32,315 nt of DNA from Alphaproteobacteria bacterium (lineage in GTDB: Bacteria; Pseudomonadota; Alphaproteobacteria; CAAGCB01; CAG-977), in NCBI GenBank assembly GCA_024407875.1, contig JAKSVT010000020.1, positions 1 to 32,315 on the forward strand, written 5' to 3'. The notes beneath the pieces are model-generated. The model was given only the letters and a program-made list of their open reading frames with translations. It did not search any database and had not been told where the DNA came from. The position numbers were made by a program, and so were the translations under genes. This document shows, piece by piece, positions 15,239 through 22,125 of the stretch (positions are counted from its first letter, which is position 1; every line of letters starts with the position of its first letter).

Positions 15239-16063
15239 ATGAGTGCAACTTCAATTGCTTTAGGTTATTCAGGCATACAGTTTCCAAATATTGACCCTGT
15301 TGCAATACATTTAGGTCAATTTGGAATACGTTGGTATTCTCTTGCATATTTGTTTGGAATTTTGTTTTGTTGGTTTTTAACGAAGGCATTAGTACGTCGT
15401 TATCCTTCAAAGGTTGATGTTGATGATTTAGATGATGCATTCTTTTGGATGACTTTAGGTGTAATTTTAGGTGGTCGTATTGGATATGTTTTATTTTATA
15501 ATTTCCAATATTATTTAGATAATCCATCTCAAATTCTGGCTGTATGGCGTGGCGGTATGTCATTCCATGGTGGTATTTTAGGTGTTATAATTGCAATATT
15601 TTTCTATACACGTTCTATAAGAGTAAGTTTTTTTGATTTGTCTGATTTGTGTGCCTGTGTTGCGCCATTAGGATTGTTTTTTGGACGTTTAGCAAATTTT
15701 GTTAATGGCGAATTATTTGGTCGTATTACAACATCTGTTCCTTGGGCTATGATATTCCCAGCAGGTGGTCCTTTACCTCGTCATCCTAGCCAATTATATG
15801 AAGCAATGTTTGAAGGTTTGTTCTTATTCATATTGTTGTATACATCATGGACAAAATGTGTTTGGATAAGAGTAAGAACAGGTTTTGTATCGGGTATGTT
15901 TTTATCAGGTTATGCAATTGCAAGATTTTTGCTTGAAAATTATCGTGAACCTGATCCTCAATTAGGATTTATGTTTGCTCGTATTACAATGGGACAATGT
16001 TTGACATTGCCTATGTTGATAATCGGGTTATTAATTATGTTTATTACATCTCGTCGTGTCTAA
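15239..16063 (+). CDS. lgt: Prolipoprotein diacylglyceryl transferase
   Basis: A 274-residue inner-membrane enzyme that moves diacylglycerol from phosphatidylglycerol to the lipobox cysteine of prolipoproteins, the first step of lipoprotein maturation. The Lgt landmarks are all present: IRWYSLAYL near the N terminus, WRGGMSFHGG with essential His110 (E. coli His103), FFGRLANFVNGELFGR with Arg150 (E. coli Arg143), RHPSQLYEA (181-189), and NYREPD near the C terminus. Seven membrane segments are plausible. The AGGA ribosome site overlaps the stop codon of the epimerase gene, pointing to coupling. The next gene starts inside its last codons. Confidence 0.96.
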   Translation: MSATSIALGYSGIQFPNIDPVAIHLGQFGIRWYSLAYLFGILFCWFLTKALVRRYPSKVDVDDLDDAFFWMTLGVILGGRIGYVLFYNFQYYLDNPSQILAVWRGGMSFHGGILGVIIAIFFYTRSIRVSFFDLSDLCACVAPLGLFFGRLANFVNGELFGRITTSVPWAMIFPAGGPLPRHPSQLYEAMFEGLFLFILLYTSWTKCVWIRVRTGFVSGMFLSGYAIARFLLENYREPDPQLGFMFARITMGQCLTLPMLIIGLLIMFITSRRV

Positions 16064-17042
16064 TAACTTATTAAAAAAACAAGAATTAGGTCAATTCTTT
16101 ACAGTTAAAGAAAATTGGCTTTTGCCTCATATATTAGATTTTATTAAAAATTCTAAATGTAAAATTGCCTATGATCCATTTGCTGGGGCAGGTAATTTGT
16201 TGAATGCTGTAAAACCTTTTGGTATAACAAAAACTATAGGATTAGATATAGATAAAAATCTTAAATGGAAATTAAATGATTCTTTATTAAATATTCCAAG
16301 GATAGAAAACTCTATATTACTTACAAACCCTCCATATTTAGCAAAGCAATCAGCATCAAGAAAGCATCTTAATTTAAATTATTTTAAAAATTCTAGCTAT
16401 GATGATTTGTATTTAATTGCTTTAGATAAAATGCTTGAAGCATCAAAATTTGTAGTGGCAATTATACCAGAGTCTTTTATTAACTCAAATTATAAGCAAA
16501 AAAATTTATTAAGCTCAATTACAATTTTAGAACAAAATCCTTTTCTTGATACAGAAAATCCAGTTTGCATTGCATGTTTTGATGGTGAGTATAAAGAATT
16601 ATCTAAGGTAAAAGTTTATAAAGAAAATAAATTCATAAATGATTTAGATAGTATATTGAAAATTAGATTAGAACCAAAATTTAACGTTGATATTTCTTTC
16701 AATGATTTAAATGGTTGGTTAGGTTTAAGAGCTATTGATAAATCTGATGATAAGACGTTTATAAAATTCGATTTTAAAGAAAATATTAATTATGATTGGG
16801 ATAACAATATTAAAGTTAGTTCAAGACATATTTCTCTTATAAATATTGATATTCCAAAGAATAAAAGAAATCTTTTAATAAAAAAATCAAATGAAATTTT
16901 ACAGGAAATTAGAGGATTGTCAGCTGATGTTTTATTAACTCCATTTAAAGGAAATACAAAAAAAGGAAAACGTCGAAGAAGAATGGATTTTAGATTAGCG
17001 AGAGCTATTTTAGAAAAAGCAAAAGAAAAAATACTTGATTGA
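16056..17042 (+). CDS. Solitary DNA N6-adenine methyltransferase (NPPY type)
   Basis: A 328-residue SAM-dependent methyltransferase. It opens with a QELGQFFT motif common to gamma-class and Eco57I-like methylases, has the SAM-binding DPFAGAGNLL (40-49) with GLDID (62-66) as the next strand, and the catalytic NPPY at 91-94. The middle (about 150-270) has no recognised domain and may hold target recognition; the C terminus (296-328) is very basic. No restriction endonuclease gene is beside it, so it looks like an orphan methylase. It begins with GTG inside the last eight bases of lgt and probably relies on translational coupling. A role in RNA or protein methylation is less likely given NPPY with this N-terminal motif. 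Confidence 0.8.
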   Translation: MSNNLLKKQELGQFFTVKENWLLPHILDFIKNSKCKIAYDPFAGAGNLLNAVKPFGITKTIGLDIDKNLKWKLNDSLLNIPRIENSILLTNPPYLAKQSASRKHLNLNYFKNSSYDDLYLIALDKMLEASKFVVAIIPESFINSNYKQKNLLSSITILEQNPFLDTENPVCIACFDGEYKELSKVKVYKENKFINDLDSILKIRLEPKFNVDISFNDLNGWLGLRAIDKSDDKTFIKFDFKENINYDWDNNIKVSSRHISLINIDIPKNKRNLLIKKSNEILQEIRGLSADVLLTPFKGNTKKGKRRRRMDFRLARAILEKAKEKILD

Positions 17043-17124: not shown

Positions 17125-17424
17125 ATGGAAATAGAAAAGAAAATCGAAGATGGTATGACTGTTTTGTATTTAAAAGGTCGTATTATTTCTACTCAATCTG
17201 GTGAAGTAGAAGGAGCTATTGAAGAGGCTCTTAAGGAAAATAATAAATTGGTTCTTGATTTGAAAAATGTTGATTTCATGGTTTCTGCTGGAGTTAGATT
17301 GCTTCTAGCAACAAATAACGAAGTTGAGGAAAAAGAGGGAACTTTTATTGTTAGAAATGCAAATAATGTTATTATGGAAGTTCTTAAAATTACAGGTCTT
17401 ACAAAATTCTTAAATATTCAATAA
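17125..17424 (+). CDS. STAS-domain anti-sigma factor antagonist (SpoIIAA/RsbV-like)
   Basis: A 99-residue single STAS domain. The characteristic LVLDLKNVDFMVSAGVRLLL (42-61) carries Ser54 at the place of the regulatory phosphoserine. The frame stays open back to an ATT-preceded start at 17035, but ATG 17125 has a proper AAGGA site at 17111-17115 and gives the normal family length, so I use it. It lies 27 bases before the gene for a protein that has both an antagonist-type phosphatase and a kinase domain, the two activities expected to act on Ser54. The downstream target, classically a sigma factor or another enzyme, is not encoded in the window. Confidence 0.88.
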   Translation: MEIEKKIEDGMTVLYLKGRIISTQSGEVEGAIEEALKENNKLVLDLKNVDFMVSAGVRLLLATNNEVEEKEGTFIVRNANNVIMEVLKITGLTKFLNIQ

Positions 17425-17451: not shown

Positions 17452-19707
17452 ATGCGTAAGATTTTCCGTAGATGGTTGCTATTATTAATCGCTTTAGTAT
17501 TTTCTCTTTCTATTGTTTCTTTTAATTATGGTTTCAGTATTTATGAAAAACAATATGGGGCTGACTTCTTACAAGTAAAGCTAGATTATGCTCTTAAACA
17601 ATTAAATAAATCTCATCAAAAAATTCATGAATTTAATACTAATTATAAACATGAAACTTTAAATTTGGCTTTTTTTATTTCAAAATTAGTTCAAAAGAAC
17701 CCCAAGTTTTTAAAGGTACAAAAATCATTATCGGAATTAGCTGATGATTTGGACGTTGAAGAAATAAATATTACAAATGAAAAGGGAATTATAGTTGCAT
17801 CTTCTAAAAAAGAAAATAAGGGAAAAGAATTAGAAGATAAGCCTAGTGAATTGCCGTCAAATTTGTTTGATGATAATAGTGCTTGGGAAAAAAATGATGA
17901 AGCGTTTTTTTCTAAAAATAGAGAATATTCTGTAAAATTAAATCGTTTTGAAGCGCCAGGATATATTCAAATTGTTCGATTATATGATGCATTAGAAGTT
18001 CAAAAAGATTCAGAACGTAAAACATCATTTTTAGAAGGATTTGAAATTGGTGATACGGGATTTGTTTTGTTAATTGGTAGCGAGAGTAAACGTATATTAT
18101 CTTCCACATATAAAAATCATGTTGGAAGATTTGCTCATGAAATTGGTTTAACTCCAATTGAATTGTGGCCTGATAGTGGATTGTTCTGGATTGAAACAAA
18201 AGAAGGTAGATATTTATGCTATCGTATTTCTACGAATTTAGATTTAGGAGCGTTCTTAGTTGGGGTTTATCCTGAAAAAGAATTGGTTCAACAACGCAAA
18301 GAAACAATGATTTGGTTAATCATTAGTTTCATGCTTGTTTTGATTGTATCATATTTTGCAATTTCTTTTTTGTTAAATAAAGTTGTTATTTCAGGTATTT
18401 TAAAAACAATTCATATTTTACATAAAATTACAAAAGGCGATTTAGAACAAAGAGTTGATATTTATTCAAACCCTGAATTTTCATCATTATCAACCGGTAT
18501 TAATACAATGGTTGAAGCTCTTCATAAAACAATGATTGAAAGAACAGCAAGAATAGAAAAAGAATTAGATTTGGCTAAAAAGATACAAATGAATGCAGTG
18601 CCATCTAAATTTCCTGCTTTCCCAAATGATTCAAGCTTTGATGTGTATGCTATTATGCATCCAGCTCGTGAAGTTGGTGGAGATTTCTATGATTTCTTTA
18701 CTTTAAGTTCTGATCATTCAAAATTATGTTTTGTTATCGCTGATGTGTCAGATAAAGGTGTTCCTGCAGCTATGTTTATGATGAGTGCAAAAGCTTTAAT
18801 TAAACAATTTGCAGAAAGAGGATTAAGTCCAGCAAAGATTTTTGAAGAGACAAACAGAGAATTAAAAATTAATAATACTACTTTTACTTTCGTAACTGTA
18901 TTTTTGGGCATTTTAGATACAAAGACAGGACGTTTGGTTTATTCAAATGCAGGCCATAATATGCCGATTTTTAAACATGAAAATGGTGTATGTGAATATA
19001 TTGAATGTGATTCAGGATATATTTTAGGAGCTGTTGCTAAAGCAAAGTTTGTAGATAACGAGATTTATTTAAAAGGTACAGAAGGATTACTCCTTTATAC
19101 TGATGGTGTAACTGAAGCAGAAAATGAAGATGAAAAATTATATTCAGATCAGCGTTTGTTGGACGTTGTAAATGAAAATCCTGCTAAAAGTTCAACTGAA
19201 ATTTTAGATTTTGTTTATAATGATGTTTTAGCTTATCGAGGTAAAGCAAAACAGTCTGATGACTTAACAATGTTGGCAGTGTCATATAATAGGCATACAC
19301 TTGAATTACCTGCAAATGAAGATAATTTGGATAAATTCTGTGAATTTGTTGATAATTTCTTGGATAAACAACAATGTTCTGATGAATTTAAGGCTAAGAT
19401 ATATGTTGTTTTAGATGAAATGATTTCTAATGTTGATAAATATGCATACAAGAATAAAAATGAAAATGAAAAATTGTTGCGTTTGTCTTGTTGTATAGGC
19501 GGAAGCCCAAAAGCTTTAGAAATTGTATTGATGGATAAAGGTACACCATTTGATCCGTTAAAAGAACCTGATTTGAACATTGATTTACCTCCAAAAGAAA
19601 GACCTGTTGGAAAGATGGGGATTTTTGTTGTTAAATCTATGGTGGATGAAATGACATATTCTTATGAAGATGGCTATAATATTGTGAAATTAAAGAAATT
19701 CATTTGA
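17452..19707 (+). CDS. Membrane sensor with HAMP, SpoIIE/PP2C phosphatase and RsbW-type kinase domains
   Basis: A 751-residue protein. Membrane helix 1 is about 8-27, a periplasmic sensor of about 250 residues follows (dCache-like in size), helix 2 is about 286-308, and a HAMP linker covers about 309-365. The PP2C/SpoIIE phosphatase (about 395-612) keeps the metal aspartates: Asp411 in GGDFYD, Asp431 in ADVSDKG, Asp551 in YTDGVTEA, and Asp603/604 in SDDLTML. The C-terminal GHKL kinase domain (about 625-751) has an N box DEMISN (Glu656, Asn660), DKGTPFDP (Asp695) and the glycine loop GKMGIFVVK (720-728). Such a protein could both dephosphorylate and phosphorylate the STAS protein next to it. 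Vibrio SypE is a known kinase-phosphatase of this general kind with a different domain order. Confidence 0.9.
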   Translation: MRKIFRRWLLLLIALVFSLSIVSFNYGFSIYEKQYGADFLQVKLDYALKQLNKSHQKIHEFNTNYKHETLNLAFFISKLVQKNPKFLKVQKSLSELADDLDVEEINITNEKGIIVASSKKENKGKELEDKPSELPSNLFDDNSAWEKNDEAFFSKNREYSVKLNRFEAPGYIQIVRLYDALEVQKDSERKTSFLEGFEIGDTGFVLLIGSESKRILSSTYKNHVGRFAHEIGLTPIELWPDSGLFWIETKEGRYLCYRISTNLDLGAFLVGVYPEKELVQQRKETMIWLIISFMLVLIVSYFAISFLLNKVVISGILKTIHILHKITKGDLEQRVDIYSNPEFSSLSTGINTMVEALHKTMIERTARIEKELDLAKKIQMNAVPSKFPAFPNDSSFDVYAIMHPAREVGGDFYDFFTLSSDHSKLCFVIADVSDKGVPAAMFMMSAKALIKQFAERGLSPAKIFEETNRELKINNTTFTFVTVFLGILDTKTGRLVYSNAGHNMPIFKHENGVCEYIECDSGYILGAVAKAKFVDNEIYLKGTEGLLLYTDGVTEAENEDEKLYSDQRLLDVVNENPAKSSTEILDFVYNDVLAYRGKAKQSDDLTMLAVSYNRHTLELPANEDNLDKFCEFVDNFLDKQQCSDEFKAKIYVVLDEMISNVDKYAYKNKNENEKLLRLSCCIGGSPKALEIVLMDKGTPFDPLKEPDLNIDLPPKERPVGKMGIFVVKSMVDEMTYSYEDGYNIVKLKKFI

Positions 19708-19724: not shown

Positions 19725-21347
19725 ATGAAGAAATTTAAATTATGTAAAGTTATTCTTCCTTTGTTGGGCTTATTAATTGCTTGTAAACTTGTTAATGCTC
19801 AAGAACTTAAAAAAGTTATATTTAATTTAAGTCAAATGAATTCTCCTAAGTACACAATTTCTGTTCAAAGTGGCACTTATGATGCTGAAGTTGCTTATCA
19901 AAAATTTCCGGCAGCTAACATAAAGGAATTCTTTAGTGGTGATGATGCTGCAAAAGCTTTATTGGAAGGTAAAGTTGATGGTTTCTTTGGAGCACATATT
20001 ATAATGCACCATTTGGTTAATTCAAACTCTAACTTTGTATTTTATCCTGAAATAGTTAAACAAGCAAAAGCGGCTATTGCTGTTACAAAATCACGTCCTG
20101 ATTTGGTTGAAAAATTAAATGCTTTTATTGAAAAATCTGAACAAGATGGTAGTTTGCATGAACTTTACACTAATTTAGTTTTAAATTTAAAATATCCTGA
20201 AAGAAAAAACAAAAACGAAGTTCAAGTTTTATCAGATGAAGAAAAAATAGTACGTTATGTAAGTGATGAAGAAAAATCAAATACAATTATTGTTGGCATT
20301 GAGAAAGACTTTGTTCCTTTATCTTATAGATTAGATAATGGTGAACTAGATGGCTTTTTAGTTGTTTTAATGAGAAGATTTTCTAAAGAAACGGGTATAA
20401 AAGTTGTATTTAAATATGATTATTTTGGAACGTTATTATCTGAATTGTTGCTAGATAAAATTCAAGTAATTGCTTCAAATACAAACGTTACGGAAGCTCG
20501 TAAAGAAAAAATGTTGTTTACGAAAGATTTTTTAGGTAATGACTTTTCTATGCTTGTAAAGAAAGAATTACTTCCAACAGAAGAGAGTTTCCATTCATTT
20601 GTTAATGCAAAAATTGGAGTAATTGCAGATGCTTATAATGGGGTAATGGCATTAAGTAGAATTCCTACAGCAACAATTATTAATTATGATACAAATGCTA
20701 AAATGCTTTCTGATTTAAAAGAAGGGAAGATAGATGCTATTGCTCATGATTTGTCATTATTGGAAGATTATGCAAAATCAAATAATGATTTAACTGTTTA
20801 TCCAACGCCAATATCAACAGATTCTTATGCTGTTGCTACTAGAAAATCAGAAAAAGAATTAATTAGAGATATTAATAAGATTTATGCCAAATTTAATTTA
20901 GATGGTACTTTTTTCAAACTTGAACGTGTTTGGTTCGGCGATGAAAAGAAGTTTGATATGCCGGTTTCCAAACCTTCAGGAATAAAAAAACTTTTAAAGA
21001 TTGGATATATTCCTGATGCATATCCATTTTCATATGTTGATAAGAATGGAGAGGTTTTAGGTTATTCTATTCATGCTTTGTATATGGCTATGCAAGAATT
21101 GGGATATGGCATTTCTGAGATGATACCTATTGAATATAAGGATGTTGTTACGGAATTAATTTCTAGAAATATTGATTTAGCTGTTGGGGCTGTATCTATA
21201 ACTCCAGATAGATTAAAAATTATTGGTTTTACAATTCCTGAATATTATACATCTAACGTTATGTTAGTTAAAAAAAGTAGACTGTTAGCAGAAGCTAAAA
21301 AAGAAAAAAATAAAAAATCTTTTTTAAGTAAATTGTTAGGCAAGTGA
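19725..21347 (+). CDS. Exported tandem family-3 solute-binding protein with half-full-half lobe order
   Basis: The 540-residue protein has an N-terminal signal; LIAC with Cys20 fits a lipobox, while VNA|Q at 25 would suit signal peptidase I, so lipoprotein status is open. Residues about 42-153 read like the second half of an SBP_bac_3 domain (VQSGTYDAEV, DGFFGA, AAIAVTKSRPDLVEKLN, DGSLHELY). Residues 186-404 are a full domain (VGIEKDFVPLSYRLDNGELDGF through DGTFFKLERVW). Residues 424-517 are a first half (IGYIPDAYPFSYVDKNGEVLGY to EYYTSNVMLVKK). The ATG at 19725 has a GAGG site 8 bases ahead; an in-frame TTG at 19704 inside the previous gene is a worse start. No ABC permease is adjacent, so it may be a periplasmic sensor input for the kinase-phosphatase upstream. 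Confidence 0.82.
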   Translation: MKKFKLCKVILPLLGLLIACKLVNAQELKKVIFNLSQMNSPKYTISVQSGTYDAEVAYQKFPAANIKEFFSGDDAAKALLEGKVDGFFGAHIIMHHLVNSNSNFVFYPEIVKQAKAAIAVTKSRPDLVEKLNAFIEKSEQDGSLHELYTNLVLNLKYPERKNKNEVQVLSDEEKIVRYVSDEEKSNTIIVGIEKDFVPLSYRLDNGELDGFLVVLMRRFSKETGIKVVFKYDYFGTLLSELLLDKIQVIASNTNVTEARKEKMLFTKDFLGNDFSMLVKKELLPTEESFHSFVNAKIGVIADAYNGVMALSRIPTATIINYDTNAKMLSDLKEGKIDAIAHDLSLLEDYAKSNNDLTVYPTPISTDSYAVATRKSEKELIRDINKIYAKFNLDGTFFKLERVWFGDEKKFDMPVSKPSGIKKLLKIGYIPDAYPFSYVDKNGEVLGYSIHALYMAMQELGYGISEMIPIEYKDVVTELISRNIDLAVGAVSITPDRLKIIGFTIPEYYTSNVMLVKKSRLLAEAKKEKNKKSFLSKLLGK

Positions 21348-21411: not shown

Positions 21412-22125
21412 TTGAAATACTTGTTGTTATTGATATTGTTGCTTTGTGCACTTAGCGTATATGTTTTAGAGCCGCAATTAAAATCATTTTCTGTAATTGC
21501 AATTTTGGCTATTATCTTTTATTTCCTATATGATATTGCGATGGGAAAAGATGAAGAAGAAAGTGTTGTGAAAACACTAAGTAATGATGAAAAAATTACT
21601 TATATTACTATTAAAAATAGGGGCAAGATTGCTGAACCTAAAAATATGGAAGAATGGAAAGCTCTTCGTAAAAGATTAGAAGCTGATTGGGATAAAGAAT
21701 TAAAAGATCAAGAAGCAGCATTTCAGCGCCAGGTTGATATGATTACAAGAGCCCATAATGAAGCCTTGGCAAAAATTAAATCTCAATATGATGCTTTTGC
21801 AAAAGATTTTGATAAAAAATCAGGGATTAAAGCTGTTGAAAATAAAGCTGTTGATGAAAAGAAACCTGAATCTTACGTTGAATTAGTTAGGGCTCGTAAA
21901 GAAAAAGAAATGCGTGAAGCCAAAGAAAGACAAGCTGCTTGGGATAAAGAAGTTAGCCGTATGTCTGAAAAATGGCAAAAAGACAAAGCTTCAGCTCAAA
22001 AACAATGGAAAATTGAGGCTGATAGAATTCAACAAGACCGTTATAGTAATAAAAATAGAGCTAAAGAAGAATGGGATGCAGAAATTCTTCGTTTGCTCAA
22101 AATTGAAAATACTGCTGTTGGATAA
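21412..22125 (+). CDS. Membrane-anchored coiled-coil protein of unknown function
   Basis: A 237-residue protein with two hydrophobic helices at about 2-18 and 25-44, then a charged cytoplasmic or periplasmic part with long, Glu/Lys/Ala-rich helices (about 75-125 and 155-225) containing repeated tryptophans in W-x-x-E/K contexts. The frame begins with TTG; GGAG (21400-21403) eight bases upstream supports that choice, and no in-frame ATG lies close by. It sits alone between the solute-binding gene and the sigma-54 promoter of the flagellar operon, with its own apparent promoter. I do not recognise the family. A flagellar or cell-envelope role is suggested only by location. Confidence 0.75.
   Translation: MKYLLLLILLLCALSVYVLEPQLKSFSVIAILAIIFYFLYDIAMGKDEEESVVKTLSNDEKITYITIKNRGKIAEPKNMEEWKALRKRLEADWDKELKDQEAAFQRQVDMITRAHNEALAKIKSQYDAFAKDFDKKSGIKAVENKAVDEKKPESYVELVRARKEKEMREAKERQAAWDKEVSRMSEKWQKDKASAQKQWKIEADRIQQDRYSNKNRAKEEWDAEILRLLKIENTAVG

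Follow-up and report, generated by a model that had tools for sequence, protein, structure and literature searches.

Two tandem circularly permuted SBP_bac_3 units, encoded behind a SpoIIE/STAS module in an alphaproteobacterium, as a probable periplasmic ligand sensor

The window analysed here, a stretch of 32,315 nucleotides from one contig of an alphaproteobacterial genome, contains a gene whose product probably consists of two tandem, circularly permuted units of the SBP_bac_3 family of substrate-binding proteins (SBPs), exported and probably tethered to the membrane. According to the best explanation, which we consider fairly likely, these units sense a ligand for a SpoIIE/STAS switch. The permuted domain order, its recurrence in other organisms and its linkage with the genes of the switch were directly observed.

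The open reading frame at 19725-21347 on the forward strand encodes 540 aa. Pfam SBP_bac_3 (PF00497) matches the product over three stretches (E-value 4.5e-45), of which residues 188-405 are a full domain; its score of 153 bits is well above the curated cut-off (26.4), and both lobes are homologous. In what follows, L1 is the N-terminal lobe of the canonical fold, and L2 is the second lobe together with the return helices. Instead of the canonical order, lobe 1 followed by lobe 2, the lobe profiles give L2-L1-L2-L1 (Table 1). The alignment behind these profiles contains the window protein, which inflates their bit scores, while Pfam is independent of it; both support the half-full-half order that had been read from the sequence alone. 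The protein has complete ends, since the signal sequence abuts lobe 2 and just 21 residues follow the last lobe 1. The signal sequence offers either a candidate lipobox, LIAC with Cys20, or a signal peptidase I site at VNA-Q, and a lipobox-like motif precedes lobe 2 in 39 of 57 permuted relatives. Pfam finds no permease domain in the chain. The C-terminal tail sits where array proteins run on into a permease, and may be a remnant of such a fused form.

Table 1. Features of the permuted SBP gene, of the switch genes upstream of it and of the related transporter locus in the same genome. Positions refer to the window unless a locus and contig are given.
Feature	Position	Strand	Evidence
STAS (anti-anti-sigma type) protein	17125..17424	+	Pfam STAS 6.4e-15
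Membrane sensor, HAMP + SpoIIE (PP2C) phosphatase + HATPase_c_2	17452..19707	+	Pfam
Signal sequence, residues 1-25	19725..19799	+	direct sequence reading; lipobox-like motif in relatives
Unit 1 lobe 2, residues 39-152	19839..20180	+	lobe-2 HMM 125.9 bits; Pfam stretch
Unit 1 lobe 1, residues 187-281	20283..20567	+	lobe-1 HMM 97.4 bits; within Pfam 188-405
Unit 2 lobe 2, residues 289-405	20589..20939	+	lobe-2 HMM 131.5 bits; AncQR alignment
Unit 2 lobe 1, residues 424-519	20994..21281	+	lobe-1 HMM 112.3 bits
Short basic C-terminal tail, residues 521-540	21285..21344	+	tail comparison with permease-fused relatives
ABC ATPase beside the four-unit array, 358 aa	L009:5348-6424, contig C44	-	tail aligns with HATPase_c_2
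Four permuted units + permease, 1195 aa	L009:6417-10004, contig C44, window genome	-	L2-L1 four times, then BPD_transp_1

The same L2-first order is shared by the relatives, which rules out chance or a frameshift artefact as the source of the half-full-half pattern. A truncated or frameshifted ordinary SBP was likewise rejected: apart from three proteins, all relatives begin lobe 2 between residues 24 and 58, preceded by a signal sequence or a lipobox. Domain databases cut the permuted unit into halves, and the permutation is therefore hidden in them.

The fold and the pairing of the lobes were predicted from models. In the AlphaFold prediction of a single unit (unit 2, 109 alignment rows), the permuted order folds as one compact two-lobed domain (pLDDT 91.2, pTM 0.84); the prediction of residues 26-540 (55 rows) has a pLDDT of 86.4 and a pTM of 0.73. 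Superposed on two-lobed binding folds, the single-unit model gives an rmsd of 6-8 Å and a TM-score of about 0.45, as is expected when an alignment that follows sequence order meets a permuted or pseudo-symmetric fold. Its match to OpuAC recurs at similar values in the full model; the idea of OpuAC as a permuted ProX homolog found no support in PMC2861598 and was not used. Over its central stretch, the full model superposes on canonical SBPs of the PDB at an rmsd of 13-20 Å (target TM 0.3-0.47), which suggests that lobe 1 of unit 1 and lobe 2 of unit 2 do not pack into an ordinary domain and that the outer halves form no simple pair around a central one. By sequence, the permuted order is absent from the best-ranked PDB chains; the match of entry 6h30 across the unit junction is explained by its being a canonical tandem.

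The sequence-only reading had proposed that the outer halves make a second domain around the central one. Such a protein would have an ordinary SBP in its centre (187-405), ringed by a second domain that the outer lobe 2 (39-152) and the outer lobe 1 (424-519) close around it; residues 187-405 do align colinearly with ordinary SBPs at good E-values, and a linker of ordinary hinge length joins the central lobes. The spacer from L2 to L1 inside a unit is nearly constant, at 14-20 residues (32 in unit 1 of the window protein), and that from L1 to the next L2 varies from -1 to 26 residues, compared with a hinge of about 4 in 45 canonical proteins. In the window protein, its close relatives and the four-unit protein, the unit-to-unit linker is at most about 5 residues long, like an ordinary hinge, so that ordinary or swapped pairing is physically possible; in the arrays of other taxa, however, it is mostly 10-26 residues long, which argues against the ring. 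The divergences of L2 and L1 correlate within the unit (0.63-0.93, in nine of nine array units), and those of L1 and the L2 of the next unit correlate negatively in five of six cases, with the caveats that centring lowers the correlations and that block duplication could yield the same pattern. Because single lobe2-lobe1 proteins occur, one unit is confidently predicted to fold compactly on its own, the modelled central stretch mismatches canonical SBPs and the lobes of the same unit co-diverge, each lobe 2 would most likely pair with the lobe 1 that comes after it, and the ring-like arrangement is quite improbable. What stands of the earlier proposal is the circular permutation with two presumed sites, arranged as two tandem L2-L1 units rather than as a pair of outer halves; the structure prediction of residues 26-540, suggested there as a way to find contact between these halves, gave a model in which the canonical central pairing is absent.

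In SBP_bac_3 amino-acid binders, a conserved lobe-1 Arg contacts the carboxylate and a lobe-2 Asp contacts the amino group of the ligand. The Arg is present in both units of the window protein (VTEARK in unit 1, ITPDRLK in unit 2) and in all 108 aligned units from relatives; the Asp is found in 52 of these 108 and, in the window protein, in unit 2 only (AIAHD motif), while the GT motif occurs in unit 1 only. Neither unit thus has the full set of amino-acid-binding residues, which makes ligand binding uncertain, and with the Asp confined to one unit and the GT motif to the other, the ligand may be something other than an alpha-amino acid.

The genome of the window (1.77 Mb) encodes a second permuted protein, with four L2-L1 units followed by a BPD_transp_1 permease and an ABC ATPase gene after it (Table 1). 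A congener carries two adjacent double-unit permuted SBP genes, and a 276-aa protein made of a signal sequence, L2 and L1 and nothing else, which corresponds exactly to a circularly permuted ordinary SBP and whose gene overlaps a SpoIIE gene by 4 bp. The tandem double-unit genes of the congener (L040:7525-10679, reverse strand) lie behind an ankyrin-repeat gene and a small, perhaps flagellar ORF, with no SpoIIE gene beside them. In further members of the family, one permuted unit is fused to a permease.

When a profile of 16 L2-L1 units was run against 385 genomes from the class, permuted matches over the full profile length (162-290 bits) came only from the family of the window organism and from one genus of another family; the remaining listed matches were partial, mostly to L1, at 112 bits or less. 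A phylum search with a strict cut-off matched the window genome alone among 398, which indicates that the family is rare though broad. A scan of genome contigs with a single protein (P0001) as query found no relatives, because the query patterns are not conserved. With a chimeric alignment of conserved lobe-2 segments from two subfamilies, the scan of 84,980 GTDB species returned 41 loci in several phyla, all of the form [L2-L1]n with lobe 2 first; this query biases the 41 loci towards its two subfamilies and, being taken from permuted proteins, gives no frequency of permutation among SBPs. The arrays have n = 1, 2, 3 or 4, usually with an amino-acid permease, and stand-alone units measure 255-280 aa. 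Hosts include Nitrosomonas communis, Methylobacter marinus, Methylobacter tundripaludum, Methylovulum miyakonense and Candidatus Formimonas warabiya, together with metagenome-assembled genomes of Chlorobium, Ignavibacteria, Geobacteraceae and Kuenenia. The permuted form is an old and widespread family.

In the tree, unit 1 of the window protein clusters with unit 1 of the congener's double-unit genes, and unit 2 with the congener's unit 2, the single-unit protein and the four-unit array. A first tree had hinted at several independent permutations for the single-unit fusions of the clan; one origin of the permutation is not rejected (AU p 0.56). These clades also bear on whether the window protein could be a functionless, decaying fragment of a longer array transporter, as the absence of the permease part, the long and divergent linker of unit 1 and the loss of some ligand-contact residues might suggest. 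The frame is open, however, the signal sequence is intact, the four lobes score 97-131 bits with HMMs that include the window protein, and the congener has co-orthologous double-unit genes whose units 1 and 2 fall in matched clades, so that decay is a very remote prospect.

Upstream of the SBP gene, the window encodes the genes of an RsbU-type module together (Table 1). The ATG of the SBP gene lies 17 bp past the stop codon of the SpoIIE/HATPase_c_2 gene, and a TTG upstream, at 19704, would make the two overlap by 4 bp. The gene had been described as directly behind a kinase-phosphatase sensor, which is right as to position, the sensor being a PP2C (SpoIIE) phosphatase that carries HATPase_c_2 at its C-terminal end. 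Residues 266-614 of this SpoIIE protein, which start at the end of the sensor domain and take in the phosphatase, are 38% identical to the SpoIIE protein encoded in the operon of Methylobacter tundripaludum. In the window, the SBP gene has no ABC permease or ATPase gene next to it, in agreement with what had been noted from the sequence, and the STAS - SpoIIE/HATPase - SBP cluster looks like an offshoot without the permease. Downstream lie a coiled-coil ORF and then what we take, from the translations, to be flgI, flgJ, flgN and flgK; the coiled-coil protein (21412-22125, 237 aa), directly behind the SBP gene, has an N-terminal membrane segment and no Pfam match above the cut-off. At 16056-17042, an ORF of 328 aa overlaps lgt; its sole match, to a family of adenine-specific DNA methyltransferases, is below threshold.

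Across the permuted-array loci, a SpoIIE gene is found within about 6 kb in 20 of 41, often overlapping the array gene, and a STAS gene is nearby in 22 of 41; HATPase_c_2 genes also lie close by. None of 18 canonical SBP loci of the class, a small control set from one class only, has SpoIIE, STAS or HATPase_c_2 in a similar stretch; the comparison gives a Fisher p of 1e-4, with related loci and rows that are not independent. The fullest operon comprises an NMT1-type SBP, a SpoIIE sensor (dCache + HAMP), [L2-L1]n-permease, an ABC ATPase, STAS and HATPase_c_2, and stop and start codons in the array operons frequently show a 4-bp overlap. Ahead of the SpoIIE gene in these operons there is regularly an NMT1/THI5-like SBP gene, which often overlaps it (L116:2860-3888, L091:2854-3888 and similar loci). 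The module is absent from the two-unit arrays of another alphaproteobacterial genus and from the single-unit fusions of the clan; therefore, the linkage is common and not universal. Within the clan, STAS-SpoIIE pairs are usual, and an SBP stands behind them only in the window genome and in an extra copy of the congener; the suggestion that the gene always follows such a pair was consequently rejected for the clan, whereas across phyla the association is strong. The sensing role raised by the sequence-only reading is likely. In a relative from the class, one protein of 1206 aa (L149:1430-5050, reverse strand) joins a canonical SBP_bac_3 domain to PAS, GAF, SpoIIE and HATPase_c_2, with a STAS gene adjoining.

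The ABC ATPases encoded next to the arrays have a length of about 360 aa, compared with 220-295 aa for the canonical controls. Their tail of roughly 120 aa aligns with HATPase_c_2 (hhalign probability 98.0%, E-value 1.9e-13), and 17 of 18 such tails (L090-L126 and L009) lack the N-box Asn, the copy of the window genome having Asn there; by these alignments, the ATPases bear a degenerate, RsbW-like HATPase_c_2 tail. A wider proposal, which we hold tentatively and at somewhat less than even confidence, is that the permuted arrays with their permease, the RsbW-like and mostly ATP-binding-dead ATPase tail and the SpoIIE/STAS/HATPase operon form a widespread sensory ABC importer, in which substrate occupancy or transport would directly drive partner switching, with the window protein as a permease-less sensor branch.

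The window protein might instead be a soluble auxiliary SBP for the permuted-array ABC importer of contig C44, its adjacency to SpoIIE reflecting shared operon ancestry only. The genome does encode, from the same family, a four-unit array permease with its ATPase, stand-alone permuted SBPs adjoin array transporters in other taxa, and unit 2 groups with the C44 units. Yet the SBP gene lies within the STAS-SpoIIE cluster, away from the transporter, and the congener retains a single-unit version that overlaps another SpoIIE gene, so that we regard a purely auxiliary role as unlikely.

To our knowledge, natural circular permutation in SBPs was previously known from one type-I family, that of TpMglB-2, and we know of no partner-switching genes for GlnPQ, and of no RsbU-type system served by its own binding protein or ABC ATPase with an RsbW-like tail. 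The literature searched, which covered few subscription papers, yielded neither of the latter two, nor a description of permuted SBP_bac_3 proteins or of SpoIIE/STAS with ABC importers. TpMglB-2 (Tp0684) of Treponema pallidum, a circularly permuted type-I SBP proposed as 'Type Ic / cluster Bc', is likewise a natural permuted periplasmic binding protein, and it binds ligand and changes conformation (PMC4990184). It differs in being a single domain of the type I sugar-binding fold with an ABC partner; the window protein is arrayed and homologous to SBP_bac_3 amino-acid binders, rather than having a type I fold and a sugar ligand. TpMglB-2 is not known as SpoIIE-linked, whereas permuted SBP_bac_3 arrays often are. 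The array relatives resemble GlnPQ, in which canonical tandem substrate-binding domains are fused to a permease (PMC8025302; PDB 6h30), in their tandem SBP_bac_3 domains and BPD_transp_1 permease; GlnP is canonical, with lobe 1 first, and the window protein has lobe 2 first and lacks the permease. EvgS and BvgS (PDB 9ilw and 4q0c), the top Foldseek matches, also have two tandem type-II binding domains and use them for sensing, but in canonical order and with a covalent histidine kinase, while the window SBP is a separate protein beside a PP2C phosphatase. In RsbU/RsbV/RsbW partner switching, a SpoIIE phosphatase, a STAS protein and a HATPase_c_2 kinase act together (reviewed in PMC8256260), and the STAS and SpoIIE/HATPase_c_2 neighbours in the window carry these domains.

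Gene order and fusion support the link between sensor and switch, and the most likely function, as we infer it, is to sense a ligand in the periplasm and pass the signal to a partner-switching cascade. The ligand, most likely a small carboxylate or a compound resembling an amino acid, would bind there and close the permuted domains, and the binding protein would then dock to the SpoIIE sensor on its periplasmic side. Docking would alter the phosphatase activity of SpoIIE on the STAS protein, which in turn would control whatever the HATPase_c_2 domain restrains.

The window SBP thus probably tells a phosphatase-based gene switch about the outside of the cell. Circular permutation is now seen among the amino-acid-binding proteins of the SBP_bac_3 family, where the arrays are stable, hold up to four units and occur in several phyla, with cultured Methylobacter, Nitrosomonas and Methylovulum among the hosts. 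The link between the transporter and SpoIIE/STAS, which can be tested in such hosts, would, together with the kinase-like ATPase tail, tie nutrient import directly to a phosphatase-controlled switch.
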